A stretch of DNA of 6,636 nucleotides from a bacterium (GTDB taxonomy: Bacteria > Hydrogenedentota > Hydrogenedentia > Hydrogenedentiales > SLHB01): assembly GCA_024231375.1 (NCBI GenBank), contig JAAEQP010000449.1, positions 1-6,636 of the forward strand. The letters are read 5' to 3'. This document shows, piece by piece, positions 1,378-6,636 of the stretch; position 1 is the first letter of the stretch, and the number at the start of each line of letters is the position of its first letter. The position numbers were made by a program, and so were the translations under genes. The notes under the pieces were generated by a model, which saw nothing but the letters and a program-made list of their open reading frames with translations, did not search any database and was not told the origin of the DNA.

Positions 1378-1393
1378 AGGGAGGTTGCGAGTG
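1378..1393 (+). promoter_or_regulatory. Ribosome-binding site that decides the GTG start at 1391
   Basis: AGGGAGG (1378-1384) ends directly against an in-frame TTG at 1385, leaving no spacer, but it lies six bases before an in-frame GTG at 1391, the normal distance. The GTG is therefore the better start, and the longer TTG start would only add two residues. Confidence 0.7.
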
Positions 1394-3859
1394 ACGGAGC
1401 CGAAGTCAACGGGTTCGATAGCGTCGATTATCCTGTGCGCCGGGAAGGGACGGCGGATGGGGACCTCCCGGACGCCCAAGGTGTGCTTTCCCGTCGCGGG
1501 CAAAGCGGCCGTGGCCCACATGCTGGAGCGGCTCGAAGGACTCGGCATCACCACGAACATCATGGTCGTGGGTCACCTGGGCGGCATGGTGGTCGACGAA
1601 ATCGGACCCCAGTTCCCTCAAGCCCTCTTCGCGTATCAGAAAGAACTTCTCGGCACGGGCCACGCCACGAAACAAGGCGCGGCCATGCTCCAGACCCTCG
1701 GCTTCGAGGGCGGCATTCTCGTCGTTGCCGGCGACAAGTTCGTCGAACCCCACGCCCTTCAGAAGATGATTGACGCGTTCCATGCGCAATCGGCCGACGT
1801 GGCCTTGCTGGTAGCCCCCAAGAACCGCTGGCCCAGCGCGGGCCGAATCGTGACAGGCGCCGACGGCGGCGTACGCCGCATCATCGAAAACGCCGACATC
1901 CGCGATGCCCGTGAAACGGGCCGCACCTTTGACGTCGACGGCGAGAGCCTCTCGGCGGACGATGTGGAGGAGCGGGTGGAATGGGTCAATCAAGCGGTAT
2001 ACCTGTTCAGTGCTGAGAGCCTGTTTCACTCCTTGGCCGAACTGGCCCGCGACAACGCCCAGAACGAAGAGTACCTGACCGACACCATCGACCACCTCGT
2101 CGACGACGGGTGCCGTGTGGTTCCGGTGCCTGTCGACGACCCAGAGGATTGTCTCGGATTCAACAGTCCGTCCGAGTTGATCGAGATTGAAGAGCATTTC
2201 CGCCACAAGATGGGTCTGGACGTCACCGAACAGGTAACCCTTGATCCGCGCATCTTCAAACCCGCGAAGGAATGGGCCGCCCGTCTTCGCGAACCGGACC
2301 ACGACCTGAGCCGTCTGTTGTGCGTTATCTACGGCAAGGACACCCACTTCCAGCGTCAGAAACGGCTGCGTCTGCTCGAAACGGTGGAGTTGTTCATCGA
2401 CCGCTTTGGACCGGACGGTGATGTGGCTGTGATTCGCGCGCCGGGCCGCGTCAATCTGATGGGGCGGCATGTGGACCATCGCGGCGGGTGCGTGAACCTC
2501 CTCGCCATCGACCGTGAGCACATCCTCGTTGCCCGACGGCGCGCCGACACCAAGGTCCGTGCGCGCAATGCCGATGCCGGCAAGTTTGAAGATCTCGAGT
2601 TCACCATGGACGACCTCTTGCGCCAGGTGCGTCTGGACGACTGGCGCGAGTTTGTAAACAGCGAGACGGTTGTCGACATGGTGCGCGATCTACAAGGCGG
2701 CTGGGGCAACTATCTCAAGGCGCCCATGCTGCGGCTGCAACAGGAGTTCAAGACGCGCCGTATCCTGGGACTGGACTGCGTCGTGAGCGGCGACATCCCC
2801 GTGGCCGCCGGTCTGAGCTCGTCGTCGGCCTTGGTGGTGGCCATGGGCGAAGCTCTGTCGCTGGTAAACGGACTCGATGTGGCCGCGAACGATCTCGTGG
2901 ATCTGTGCGGCGAGGGCGAGTGGTTCGTGGGCACCCGTGGCGGCAGCGCCGACCACGCGGCCGTGAAGCTCAGTCAGTACGGCCAGGTCGCGAACGTATC
3001 CTTCTTCCCCTTTGCCATCAACGAGTATCTCCCGTTTCCAAAAGGGTACTCCCTGGTCATCTGCAACTCGCGGGTCCAGGCGCGCAAAGCAGCCGGTGCC
3101 CGGAACGCGTTCAACGAACGAATCGCCTCGTACGAATTCGCCGTGGAATTGGTGAAGAAACGGTTCCCCAACTACGCACCCCTGATTCATCACCTGCGCG
3201 ACATCACCCCGTCCGGGCTGGGTGTCCGCGCGGCCGACATCTACCGCATCCTGCTTGACGTGCCCGAGTCGGCGACCGTGGACGAACTGCGCGCCGAGAT
3301 CGGGGATGACTTGGTAGACCGTGTGCTCGCGTCGCACGCGCCACAACCGTCGTATGCTCTGCGCGGACGGCTGCTATTCGGTATCGCCGAATGCGAACGG
3401 AGTCGGCATTGCGTGAAGATGTTGCGCGAAGGCGATCTTGAACGATTCGGGTCGTTCATGAACATCTCCCACGACGGCGATCGCGTGGCTGCCGCTCAGG
3501 GCGAGCCGTACCACGCCCCATCCGACGACATGTACCTTCGCCGCAACATCGAATCGCTGCACAGCGAGGATCCGGATGGGGTCCTGGCTGGGCAGCTCTA
3601 CTCGCAGCCCGGCAGTTATGCGTGCAGCATTCCGGCCATCGACCGCATGGTCGACATCGCCCTCGGCACGCCCGGCGCTTTGGGCGCCCAGATCTCGGGC
3701 GCAGGTCTCGGTGGATGTATGATGGTGCTCGCGCCGGAAGACGCTGCCGAACTCGTCATCAAACGGCTCCACGTCATGTACTACGAGCCCAACAACATGG
3801 AGCCGGATGCGCTGGCGATTACGCCTATCGCGGGCTGCTCGCCGCTGGTGGCTGGGTAG
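1391..3859 (+). CDS. Bifunctional sugar nucleotidyltransferase / GHMP sugar-1-kinase fusion
   Basis: An 822-residue cytoplasmic protein with two catalytic domains (numbered from GTG 1391). Residues 10 to about 265 are a GlmU-like nucleotidyltransferase: LCAGKGRRMG (15-24) and TPKVCFPVAGK (28-38) match the NTP-binding loop and Lys motif. GTGHA (88-92), AGD with Asp115 as a likely Mg ligand, Asn200, NEEYLTD (225-231) and GFN (256-258) follow in GlmU order. GlmU's acetyltransferase helix is absent. After a linker, residues about 345-822 are a galactokinase-like GHMP kinase: GRVNLMGRHVDHRGG (352-366), the phosphate loop VAAGLSSSSA (471-480), GTRGGSADH with candidate base Asp521, and the glycine-rich motif 3 QISGAGLGGC (767-776). 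The expected chemistry is sugar plus ATP to sugar-1-phosphate, then transfer to an NTP giving NDP-sugar. The sugar and base are unknown: Arg359 replaces the galactokinase Glu, and Leu86 replaces GlmU's Gln before GTGHA. The gene is a single unbroken frame, apparently monocistronic. The domain calls are firm; substrates are not. Confidence 0.92.
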   Translation: MTEPKSTGSIASIILCAGKGRRMGTSRTPKVCFPVAGKAAVAHMLERLEGLGITTNIMVVGHLGGMVVDEIGPQFPQALFAYQKELLGTGHATKQGAAMLQTLGFEGGILVVAGDKFVEPHALQKMIDAFHAQSADVALLVAPKNRWPSAGRIVTGADGGVRRIIENADIRDARETGRTFDVDGESLSADDVEERVEWVNQAVYLFSAESLFHSLAELARDNAQNEEYLTDTIDHLVDDGCRVVPVPVDDPEDCLGFNSPSELIEIEEHFRHKMGLDVTEQVTLDPRIFKPAKEWAARLREPDHDLSRLLCVIYGKDTHFQRQKRLRLLETVELFIDRFGPDGDVAVIRAPGRVNLMGRHVDHRGGCVNLLAIDREHILVARRRADTKVRARNADAGKFEDLEFTMDDLLRQVRLDDWREFVNSETVVDMVRDLQGGWGNYLKAPMLRLQQEFKTRRILGLDCVVSGDIPVAAGLSSSSALVVAMGEALSLVNGLDVAANDLVDLCGEGEWFVGTRGGSADHAAVKLSQYGQVANVSFFPFAINEYLPFPKGYSLVICNSRVQARKAAGARNAFNERIASYEFAVELVKKRFPNYAPLIHHLRDITPSGLGVRAADIYRILLDVPESATVDELRAEIGDDLVDRVLASHAPQPSYALRGRLLFGIAECERSRHCVKMLREGDLERFGSFMNISHDGDRVAAAQGEPYHAPSDDMYLRRNIESLHSEDPDGVLAGQLYSQPGSYACSIPAIDRMVDIALGTPGALGAQISGAGLGGCMMVLAPEDAAELVIKRLHVMYYEPNNMEPDALAITPIAGCSPLVAG

Positions 3860-3897: not shown

Positions 3898-4716
3898 CTA
3901 CCGCTCCACTCCCCATTGCGACGCCGCCCGGTCCAGGATGCGCCGCGCATTTCCACCGAGTATCTTCACCTTGTCCGCTTCCGGGATGTCGGCGCCCAGC
4001 ACCTTGCCAAGCTGCTGCCCTTGGCTGAACAGGGCCACGTCCGATCCCCACACAACACGCTCCGCACCCACGGCATCGACAAGCCGGCGCACAAGCCCCC
4101 GCGGACTCAGGCTGTATGTCAGATCAAGGTAGACATTCGGCGCGTCGTGCGCAAGCTGTACATAGGCAGCTTCGTTCGCCGACCCCGAATGACCGGCCAG
4201 CATCGAGGTGTCCGGATATCGTGCCGCCAATGTTCGGATGGCGTCGAGTTGGACGTCCTGTCCCCACGTGTGAAACAGCACCGGCATGCAACGTTCGTTT
4301 GCAGCCGCCAAGTAGGGCCCATAGCCGTCGTACAGGTACGTCACATCCCGGTAGTCGTAGAGCTTGAGGCCCGTATACCGTGACAGCCGCGCTTCAGCCT
4401 CGCGCACCGTCGGCGGTTCGCGCGTTGGCCACGGTCGCAGATACCCAAGAATCCGTCCCGGACACGCCGCCATGGCATCCAGCACAGCTCGATTCTCGCG
4501 TTGCGAATCCACCTGCGACACGGGCGCCGAGGTGGTCACCAAGGTGATGTCGACTCCGGCTCGGTCCATGCCGGCCACGATGTCCTCCGGCCCGGTTCGA
4601 TCGTATTGCACGCCGAACCGCACGCGGATATGGGCGTGCATGTCGATGACTTCGATGTGGTCCAGGGGGAGCCCCCTCCGTCCCCGCTCGAGAACCGTCA
4701 GCTTGCCTCCGCTCAT
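3898..4716 (-). CDS. Amidohydrolase family protein (Amidohydro_2), apparently catalytically intact
   Basis: A 272-residue protein of the metal-dependent TIM-barrel hydrolases/decarboxylases related to 2-pyrone-4,6-dicarboxylate hydrolase and ACMS decarboxylase. The motifs appear in the expected order: DMHAH (25-29) with metal ligands His27 and His29; GLKLY (116-120); VLFHTWG with His149; LAGHSG with His176; and VVWGSD with catalytic Asp226. The C-terminus has the usual ILGGNARRIL helix (Asn in the family's G-N-A-x-R-x-L pattern). There is no signal peptide, so it is cytoplasmic. The exact substrate (hydrolysis or decarboxylation of a small carboxylate or lactone) cannot be read from sequence. 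It is the second gene of an operon. Its ATG overlaps the upstream stop in ATGA (4716-4713), implying translational coupling, and GGAAGGGG lies about seven bases upstream. It ends convergent with the sugar fusion gene. Confidence 0.88.
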   Translation of the reverse strand: MSGGKLTVLERGRRGLPLDHIEVIDMHAHIRVRFGVQYDRTGPEDIVAGMDRAGVDITLVTTSAPVSQVDSQRENRAVLDAMAACPGRILGYLRPWPTREPPTVREAEARLSRYTGLKLYDYRDVTYLYDGYGPYLAAANERCMPVLFHTWGQDVQLDAIRTLAARYPDTSMLAGHSGSANEAAYVQLAHDAPNVYLDLTYSLSPRGLVRRLVDAVGAERVVWGSDVALFSQGQQLGKVLGADIPEADKVKILGGNARRILDRAASQWGVER

Positions 4717-5483
4717 CGCACGACCCCTTCCAGCAGCCGTTCCATGGTGCCAGCTCCCACCGCTCGCTTGGCGCCGTCCGAGAGCCCTGAATACATCAGG
4801 TGGGTGACCGCGGCCATGGGTTCCGCCACGGGGAACCCCGTGCCAAACAACACCCGCTCAATCATGGGACGGCCGGTTGCATCGCAATGTTCCGACAGCA
4901 GTTCCAACGCGCCGTATACCACGTAGTTGGCGCCCATCGACAGGTAGACATTCGGGAACGCCCGTAGAAAGGGCACCGCACTCCGCTGCTTGATGTATTG
5001 CACATCCACCACGATCAGCGGCAGCTCCGGGTAATCCGTCGCGATACCGGCCAGATCCCCGAACGGTATCTTGCTCTCCGAACACACCACCGGCATCCGG
5101 CGATCCATCAGTGCCCCAAACAAGGCCCCGCTGCACCACGCGCCCAAATCCCATCGGTCGTCTGTCGGCCGGATGGTTACCGCGCCCGCACCCTCGGCGA
5201 TAGCCGTTGCCACCTGTTCATCTTCCGGCGCCATGTCGTACGCGCCGTTCGGCACCACAATCGGACACGGCAGCAGTTTCGCGCGATCCCGGCACGTCGC
5301 GTACAACTCACGGTTCGCATCCGGCGCATCCCGCAACAGATCGTCCGGAAACGTCCGTACCAACGCGCGTCCGATGTCCGCGCGTTCCATGTCTCTTAAA
5401 AGGTCGTCAACCCCGACCGGCGCCGCCTTCCCCGGCGAAGGTCCGCCGAACCCCGCCTGCACATCGAACAGTGTCACACTCAT
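4713..5483 (-). CDS. Amidohydrolase-fold protein lacking the metal ligands (probable pseudoenzyme)
   Basis: A 256-residue protein whose length and motif spacing parallel the downstream amidohydrolase, but with every catalytic position changed. The DMHAH strand is replaced by FDVQAGFGG (6-14), so His-x-His becomes Gln9-x-Gly11. MPVLFH becomes MPVVCS (Ser135), LAGHSG becomes IVVDVQ (157-162), and VVWGSD becomes VLFGTG (Gly216). The rest of the barrel and the C-terminal helix (VGAGTMERLL) still follow the family pattern, including FPNVYLSMG (176-184), the counterpart of APNVYLDLT. It is therefore likely to be a non-catalytic partner or binding protein, not a hydrolase. No stop or frameshift is present, which argues for retained function. 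ATG 5483 is chosen over GTG 5489 because AAGGAG (5494-5489) sits five bases before it. It is first in the operon, coupled by ATGA to the active paralogue. Fold assignment is by eye from alignment with the neighbour. Confidence 0.75.
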   Translation of the reverse strand: MSVTLFDVQAGFGGPSPGKAAPVGVDDLLRDMERADIGRALVRTFPDDLLRDAPDANRELYATCRDRAKLLPCPIVVPNGAYDMAPEDEQVATAIAEGAGAVTIRPTDDRWDLGAWCSGALFGALMDRRMPVVCSESKIPFGDLAGIATDYPELPLIVVDVQYIKQRSAVPFLRAFPNVYLSMGANYVVYGALELLSEHCDATGRPMIERVLFGTGFPVAEPMAAVTHLMYSGLSDGAKRAVGAGTMERLLEGVVR

Positions 5484-5488
5484 TGCCA

Positions 5489-5494
5489 CTCCTT
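5489..5494 (-). promoter_or_regulatory. Ribosome-binding site of the amidohydrolase operon's first gene
   Basis: AAGGAG on the minus strand, five bases before ATG 5483. It overlaps the alternative GTG at 5489 and so excludes that codon as the start. Confidence 0.75.
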
Positions 5495-5550: not shown

Positions 5551-6002
5551 GCGTCGAATCTCTACCATACCCAGTGCTAAAGAATCCCAAGTTTCCATCC
5601 ATGTGCATTCACGACCACAACAGGAGTCCCGAAGCAGCCAAATTCAGCGAGTCGGTTGTAGTCTGTGCGGGCGATGAGGCCGGTTTGTACCCGTCTTCCG
5701 CCCTCTCCCAACGGGAGAGGGGTGGGGTGAGGGGTCTTTAATCTTCCTGCATTGTGTCCGATTCCGAAACTGAGGAGCTCTGAGTACCCAGCAGTCAGAG
5801 GTTGCCGTCGCAATGGGGGCGATGCTATTCTGCCCACAGGGGAAGCCTTCCTAGCGCGGGCTGCGGTGAGAGAGAACGGACATCGTGTGACAGGATACGT
5901 GTGTCCAGTGTGATTCTGGCATACACGACAAGGCTGGCAAGGTTCGCGAATGGCGGCAGGTTGAACGCCGTGATTCGCAGGACATGCTCGGGAGACAAGC
6001 GA
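5551..6002. other. Intergenic stretch without a convincing gene
   Basis: About 450 bases lie between the divergent amidohydrolase operon and NHL-protein gene. Its right part may carry the promoter of the NHL gene; the best by-eye match is TTGCCG (5802-5807), 18 bases, TATTCT (5826-5831), only 4 of 6 at each hexamer. The left part contains the hairpin repeat at 5701-5721. The minus-strand frame across it reads through that repeat and shows no domain, so it is not called as a gene. No tRNA, riboswitch or CRISPR-like structure was recognised. Confidence 0.6.
5701..5739. repeat. REP-like hairpin repeat with G-rich tail
   Basis: CCCTCTCCC (5701-5709), a three-base AAC loop and GGGAGAGGG (5713-5721) form a perfect 9-bp stem. 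A tail GTGGGGTGAGGGG follows. On the opposite strand this reads as CCCTCACCCC-type sequence leading into the stem, a pattern known as a common dispersed intergenic repeat in many GC-rich bacteria; when translated it gives the familiar PHPTPLPLGEG artefact. There is no U-tract beside the stem on either strand, so a repeat is preferred to an intrinsic terminator. Confidence 0.6.
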
Positions 6003-6636
6003 ATGCGGCGTTGGACGGTGCTCGGGGTGCTTGGGACTCTTCTCGTTGTGCTGTGGCCTGCCGCGGTCCACGCGGACGGGCAACTCACCTACCAGTTTGA
6101 ACGCAAATGGCCGGTGCTGCCGCAGCCGTGGTATTTCGACGATCCACATGACGTGGCTGTGGATGGTTTGGGCAATGTCTACGTTGCGGACACGGACAAG
6201 CATCGAATCCAGAAGTTAGACTCTGATGGTACCTTCCTGACTAGGTGGGGGAGCGAAGGCACCGAAGATGGCCAGTTCGACAAACCGGAGGGAATCGCGG
6301 TTGGCCCCGATGGCTCGGTGTACGTCGCAGACACCAACAACCACCGCATCCAGAAGTTCGACAGTGATGGCGCGTTGTCAGGCACGTGGGGAAGTCAAGG
6401 GGCCGCGGATGGTCAGTTCGCCTGGCCCAGAGCCGTCGCTGTAGACGGGGCGGGGCATATCTACGTCGCGGACACGGACAACCACCGCATCCAGAGGTTC
6501 GAATCAGATGGCACTTTCCTGATCGCCTTGGGGAGTGAAGGCACCGGTGACGGTCAGTTCGACTCCCCCCAAGGTGTTGCGGTAGACGTGTCGGGCAATG
6601 TGTACGTCGCGGACACGGACAACCACCGCATCCAGA
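6003..6636 (+). CDS. Secreted NHL-repeat beta-propeller protein, N-terminal part (runs off right edge)
   Basis: The frame is open from ATG 6003 to the right edge, 211 codons, so the C-terminus is missing. Residues 1-24 are a type I signal peptide: MRR, a hydrophobic core, then AVHA before Asp25. There is no lipobox cysteine, so the product is exported to the periplasm or outside. From residue 36 it is made of NHL repeats with the pattern DGQF-x2-P-x-G-[IV]-AV-D-x2-GNVYVAD-T-D-NHRIQ-[KR]-F-x-SDGTF. YVAD begins at residues 60, 107, 154 and 201, exactly 47 apart. NHL repeats are blades of a (usually six-bladed) propeller that binds protein, glycan or nucleic acid ligands, or rarely is enzymatic; no function can be chosen. 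GGGAG at 5990-5994, eight bases before the ATG, supports the start. High nucleotide identity between blades suggests recent duplication. It is divergent from the amidohydrolase operon, with no evident functional link. Confidence 0.9.
   Translation, partial: MRRWTVLGVLGTLLVVLWPAAVHADGQLTYQFERKWPVLPQPWYFDDPHDVAVDGLGNVYVADTDKHRIQKLDSDGTFLTRWGSEGTEDGQFDKPEGIAVGPDGSVYVADTNNHRIQKFDSDGALSGTWGSQGAADGQFAWPRAVAVDGAGHIYVADTDNHRIQRFESDGTFLIALGSEGTGDGQFDSPQGVAVDVSGNVYVADTDNHRIQ
6180..6636 (+). repeat. 141-bp tandem coding repeats (NHL blades)
   Basis: Units begin at 6180, 6321, 6462 and 6603, each exactly 141 bases apart with no indels; the last is cut at 34 bases by the window edge. Those 34 bases are identical to the start of the third unit, and the second unit differs from it at only a few positions there. 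The middles of the units are more diverged. The array probably continues past the window. Confidence 0.9.

Follow-up and report, generated by a model that had tools for sequence, protein, structure and literature searches.

The 6,636-nucleotide window analysed here (contig JAAEQP010000449.1 of assembly GCA_024231375.1, phylum Hydrogenedentota) carries on its forward strand, at positions 1391-3859, a gene for an 822-amino acid protein that joins a GlmU-like nucleotidyltransferase to a galactokinase-family GHMP kinase. The frame is uninterrupted from its GTG start at 1391 to the TAG at 3859, and AGGGAGG, seen by eye, lies upstream of the start at 1378-1384. The nucleotidyltransferase domain spans residues 9-278 (1415-2224), and the kinase domain, whose extent is GALK2-like, spans residues 295-820 (2273-3850). 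An initial annotation, made from the DNA letters, had read two domains in one frame, transferase and then kinase. That arrangement is borne out by Pfam, by sequence matches in the PDB and by a model from AlphaFold (predicted local distance difference test score, pLDDT, 87). Both families were matched above Pfam gathering scores, the transferase by PF00483 (best stretch 12-244) and PF12804 (13-221), and the kinase by PF10509 (333-383), PF00288 (440-526) and PF08544 (737-793). The best PDB sequence match was GlmU for the transferase half and human GALK2, an N-acetylgalactosamine (GalNAc) kinase, for the kinase half. AbGHMP (PDB 9ulx) is a weaker relative, and no paper naming it was found in the open-licence literature. 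NCBIfam matched 32 families, with gal_kin and numerous GlmU models among the 25 shown; every one of those 25 fell below its cut-off, the gal_kin equivalog scoring 160.2 bits vs 226.65.

Both active sites look intact. We assigned the catalytic sites through alignments with solved relatives of each half, and the residues presumably have the roles that they play in those families. Conservation was scored in 142 pooled homologous proteins, window protein included, with rows gapped at a site left out of its count. K30 of the transferase is kept in 129 of 130 rows, and Q83, G88, T89 and D115 (131/131), G151 and E166 (132/132), and N200 and N258 (136/136) are kept throughout. The domain also has a GKG loop, GTGHA at residues 88-92, K116 directly after D115, and NEEYLTD at 225-231. 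In the kinase, all 142 rows keep D521 and the GLSSSS serines of the ATP-loop motif GLSSSSAL (residues 474-481; 2810-2833). D521, the predicted catalytic base, lies in GGSADH (residues 517-522; 2939-2956).

The family of these fusions is widespread in several bacterial groups. Of 5.8 billion proteins searched, 7995 were scored as candidates and 1381 reached E <= 0.001. Among the best 120 listed, which include the window protein, precomputed Pfam calls place both domain types in 114, so that the shared architecture which the initial annotation suggested looking for is found in 113 of the 119 others. The six exceptions (P0029, P0047, P0051, P0052, P0054 and P0055) lack the transferase call and are mostly short. 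An assembly error does not account for the fusion, because these 113 homologues carry both domain types and 131 of the 142 pooled proteins, window protein included, are at least 770 amino acids long. Where the source names the organism, close members (57-71% identity) are Hydrogenedentota, and distant members (38-48%) include Chloroflexi, Anaerolineae, Phycisphaerae, Brocadiia and Kiritimatiellia. Within Candidatus Hydrogenedentota, the phylum to which the nearest genome (G001) belongs, the listed matches place the fusion in 9 of 68 genomes: it is complete in six (G001, G022, G048, G049, G050 and G065), cut by a contig end in G066 and G067, and divergent in G020. Every one of the 68 genomes gave a match of some kind, in most cases to a different kinase or transferase. 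Pattern searches of viral contigs gave 24 matches, none of them a relative. The plasmid search matched 85 records, without one that covered 80% of the query; the 20 that are listed match the kinase half at 24.5-25.8% identity and are galactokinases where the gene is annotated.

The two halves have been inherited together. Their pairwise distances correlate at r = 0.925 (8256 pairs from 129 of the 142 proteins, all those shorter than 795 amino acids having been dropped, including P0047, whose N-terminus is apparently frame-shifted relative to its relatives), as expected if the halves travelled together. Mean pairwise identity is 47% for the transferase and 54% for the kinase, and thus neither half has run free. 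In a 20-sequence alignment, the transferase interval between D169 and N200 measures 93-138 residues in 13 distant members and 32 residues in 7 close ones.

The sugar pocket of the kinase is altered across the family. Motif 1 of galactokinases is G-E-H-T-D-Y. The initial annotation had credited the protein with the three galactokinase motifs, and the motifs that it named are present by eye, but motif 1 (residues 350-366, APGRVNLMGRHVDHRGG; 2438-2488) reads G-R-H-V-D-H, which makes galactose an unlikely substrate. G-R-H-[VI]-D-H occurs in 138 of 139 rows; the remaining row has Glu for Asp, and Arg is present in all 139. We take the galactose contacts of Lactococcus lactis galactokinase to be Arg36, Glu42, Asp45, Asp183 and Tyr233, with the Glu touching the sugar O6. 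By sequence alignment these map to R353, R359, D362, D521 and F574, so that three are kept (R353 in 139/139 rows, D362 in 138/139, and the invariant D521) and two are replaced: the Glu42 position is Arg in 139/139 rows, and the Tyr233 position is Phe in 141/142. F574-N575 (3110-3115) occupies the position of the galactokinase Tyr233/Asn. At these sites GALK2 has Phe, as in the fusion, and retains the motif-1 Glu. Position 522, directly behind the predicted catalytic Asp, is His in 142/142 rows and Gln in the 14 G-E-H kinases compared. The pocket changes suggest a better fit to an acidic sugar, such as a uronic acid, than to galactose. Work on the Arabidopsis galacturonokinase GalAK, which is, unlike the fusion, a stand-alone plant kinase, is in line with this: it reportedly has Ala at the motif-1 Glu position; changing this Ala to Glu is reported to abolish activity, and a Tyr-to-Phe change reportedly allows glucuronic acid (GlcA) as a substrate.

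A basic residue is also found in the transferase. The loop after the catalytic Asp reads DxPL in nine aligned GlmU proteins and D[K/R], one residue shorter, in the fused family, where the residue after D115 is Lys in 83 and Arg in 48 of 131 rows. Since both sites must handle the same sugar, and both have a basic residue absent in characterised relatives, the most economical reading is a sugar with a negative charge, of which a uronic acid is the commonest case. Our best guess, which is a tentative one, is an acidic group at C6, as in glucuronic, galacturonic or amino-uronic acid. Ten relatives (P0148, P0150-P0154, P0156-P0158 and P0160) have a closely related transferase domain and no GHMP Pfam call, although some are possibly partial. 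Eight of them carry a GDK loop, one is named archaeal, and as a group they may represent the unfused ancestor type.

We propose that the fusion is probably a one-chain salvage enzyme converting a free sugar to a sugar-1-phosphate and then to a nucleoside diphosphate (NDP)-sugar, and that the sugar is probably not galactose. The C-terminal kinase would phosphorylate a free monosaccharide at its anomeric oxygen with ATP, and the N-terminal domain would combine the sugar-1-phosphate with a nucleotide, most likely uridine triphosphate (UTP); the resulting NDP-sugar would feed the synthesis of surface polysaccharides or other glycans. What the sequences themselves establish is the domain make-up, the conservation of the predicted catalytic residues, the joint inheritance of the halves and the altered sugar pocket; both activities, the donor, the salvage role and the acidic substrate we infer.

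How does this arrangement compare with known systems? Plant FKGP is an L-fucokinase/guanosine diphosphate (GDP)-fucose pyrophosphorylase of the Fkp type. Fkp itself, the Bacteroides fragilis L-fucokinase/GDP-fucose pyrophosphorylase, is a single 949-amino acid chain with the pyrophosphorylase N-terminal (this half includes a left-handed beta-helix domain) and the GHMP kinase C-terminal, which carry out consecutive salvage reactions to GDP-fucose (PMC11982464). The fusion resembles these enzymes in placing a pyrophosphorylase-type domain before a GHMP kinase in a single chain. It differs in that its N-terminal half is GlmU-like and its kinase match, from about residue 295, is galactokinase-like; no fucokinase model appears among its 5 Pfam matches or the 25 of 32 NCBIfam matches shown. 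A second precedent for the domain order, which the initial annotation did not name, is zebrafish DrGKUP, a glucuronokinase/putative uridine diphosphate (UDP)-GlcA pyrophosphorylase. It has a nucleotidyltransferase (260 amino acids) followed by a GHMP kinase (357 amino acids), found by the authors through the Arabidopsis glucuronokinase and proposed for UDP-sugar salvage; the nucleotidyltransferase was aligned with 1H5T (Escherichia coli glucose-1-phosphate thymidylyltransferase) and 2PA4 (PMC3938481). Its pyrophosphorylase half had no activity in standard assays, and the full protein gave a small UDP-GlcA signal after 70 hours; the bacterial and archaeal nucleotidyltransferases in the paper's tree consist, according to the authors, of that domain alone (PMC3938481). 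DrGKUP and the fusion share the transferase-then-kinase order. The fusion thus likely works like Fkp and DrGKUP but is built from different subfamilies, and the fucokinase-type domains, a defining feature of Fkp, are absent from its Pfam matches and from the NCBIfam matches shown.

Each half can also be set beside its own relatives. The transferase shares with GlmU its fold and most active-site residues, but it has no C-terminal acetyltransferase (the left-handed beta-helix of GlmU), the GHMP kinase taking its place from about residue 295, and it reads PKVC or HKVC where most of the nine GlmU proteins read PKVL. The kinase shares with GALK2 and galactokinases the fold, the GHMP domains (galactose-binding-signature, N- and C-terminal) and the predicted catalytic Asp, but its motif 1 carries Arg in place of Glu and His in place of Tyr, and it has Asp-His for Asp-Gln. 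The Fkp-like logic and conserved motifs put forward in the initial annotation are supported by Pfam and by homologue conservation, and its remark that no characterised enzyme has this exact pairing agrees with our finding no paper on a GlmU-type and galactokinase-type pairing in the open-licence literature. In general terms the fusion belongs to a known kind of two-domain protein, but we found no characterised member of this variant.

The genomes of this phylum encode other kinases of the same superfamily. In a FastTree phylogeny of 49 kinases (17 fusions from the 142 pooled proteins and 32 other kinases of the phylum taken from loci), the fusion kinases form one clade (support 0.993). Its sister is a stand-alone family (support 1.0; both together 0.889) reading GMH[VI]DTHGG in 22/22 loci of that class. 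This stand-alone class is 31-37% identical to the fusion kinase; by the rows listed, 54 of the 68 genomes of the phylum have a match to it at E <= 2.5e-42. Of 7 loci examined, 3 (L046, L049 and L051) have it next to genes for a VWA protein, a long TPR protein and ExbB; ExbD was seen in L049, and in L019 the kinase sits beside a VWA gene at a contig end. Separate kinases with the galactokinase motif GEH[TV]DY, in frames of 442-489 amino acids, are present in the four fusion genomes read (L004 in G001, L052 in G050, L058 and L062 in G049, and L060 in G048). We also considered whether the fusion merely replaces GlmU. This idea is not supported: in 10 of 11 genomes searched (7 with the fusion, 4 without), a separate GlmU-like frame of about 400-480 amino acids matched both GlmU halves. 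The G022 frame is 329 amino acids, and G049 has one matched piece with two stops. No match reaches the model cut-off in any genome, and the fusion transferase is the best GlmU-type match in 7/7 fusion genomes given.

The neighbouring genes point to no particular sugar, and evidence from context is weak. Ten fusion loci were compared, window included, with selected neighbours run through Pfam; several end at contig ends. No neighbourhood is conserved across the ten. The close relatives L038 and L043 have three neighbour clusters in common, and L001 (16261-17700) and L039 (6306-7754) share a transglutaminase-type gene, named from the Pfam match in L001; there are no other shared clusters. The transglutaminase-type gene lies about 6 kb or less from the fusion in loci that otherwise differ, and may be there by chance. 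The neighbours run through Pfam include Wzz and Polysacc_synt (L038), GH38 and a polysaccharide deacetylase (L039), and PIG-L (L001, which also has patatin, MotA/MotB and others). Elsewhere the fusion lies near an FGE-sulfatase domain and a PQQ propeller (L044), PilZ (L040), an HD domain and a purple-acid-phosphatase/FG-GAP protein (L041), and an RNA methyltransferase (L042). In the window its neighbours are a Gfo/Idh/MocA oxidoreductase, two adjoining Amidohydro_2 genes on the reverse strand (3898-5489), whose frames overlap by 4 bases and have 0 NCBIfam matches, and the start of an NHL-repeat beta-propeller protein (5802-6636, forward strand), cut by the window end. Imperfect inverted repeats lie 5' of the fusion at 1143-1250 (22-nucleotide arms at 1145-1166 and 1229-1250, 86% complementary), possibly a small repeat element.

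Several observations weigh against an acidic substrate. GALK2 and GlmU, the solved proteins closest to the kinase and the transferase, handle N-acetylhexosamines, and R359 and K116 might be engaged in salt bridges within the protein instead of binding sugar. Moreover, 8 of the 10 aligned relatives without a GHMP call also have Lys after the catalytic Asp (P0153 has Val and P0156 Ala); the basic residue is therefore a trait of the transferase subfamily rather than of the fusion, and need not be linked to R359. With no conserved neighbourhood, the reading of the substrate rests on residues alone. GalNAc or N-acetylglucosamine (GlcNAc) is a serious rival, although we consider it somewhat unlikely: the kinase would yield GalNAc-1-phosphate or GlcNAc-1-phosphate, and the GlmU-like half UDP-GalNAc or UDP-GlcNAc. 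The F574 shared with GALK2 fits this route, as do the presumed GlmU-like pocket residues G88, T89, G151, E166 and N200, kept in every row, and the PIG-L and polysaccharide deacetylase neighbours, at one locus each. One source (jgi) labels many members 'N-acetylgalactosamine kinase', but the name is automatic, and all the NCBIfam scores shown, 25 in number, stay under the cut-offs of their models. The motif-1 Glu that GALK2 retains is Arg throughout the fusion rows, and the transferase lacks the GlmU DxPL loop.

Direct conversion of galactose to UDP-galactose in a single enzyme, bypassing the Leloir exchange step, would suit the galactokinase-family fold and domains and the retained R353, D362 and D521. 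We regard it as highly improbable, as two of the five galactose contacts are replaced family-wide and separate GEH[TV]DY kinases are found in the four fusion genomes read. Could one half instead be regulatory, degenerate or barely active? Yeast Gal3, a non-catalytic example of the galactokinase fold, is among the fold matches of the protein. The zebrafish enzyme, with its barely active pyrophosphorylase half, offers a precedent (PMC3938481). The near-invariance of the predicted catalytic residues in both halves, and the constraint seen on each, make this improbable for the fusion. We favor salvage of a non-galactose sugar by two active halves, with the C6-acidic sugar as the best guess. A more specific idea, which we offer as speculation, is that these widespread bacterial fusions are dedicated to uronic or N-acetylhexosaminuronic acids, with a conserved basic residue in both sites that characterised relatives lack (R359 and K/R116), and would make UDP-uronate directly from the free sugar, bypassing UDP-glucose dehydrogenase.

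Why does this family matter? It would extend the short list of known sugar kinase/pyrophosphorylase fusions by a further independent pairing, from poorly cultured phyla. Many members carry an automatic N-acetylgalactosamine kinase name for which we found no supporting test, and because the pocket changes are invariant, the substrate can be tested. One-pot enzymes of this type are also useful for sugar-nucleotide production.
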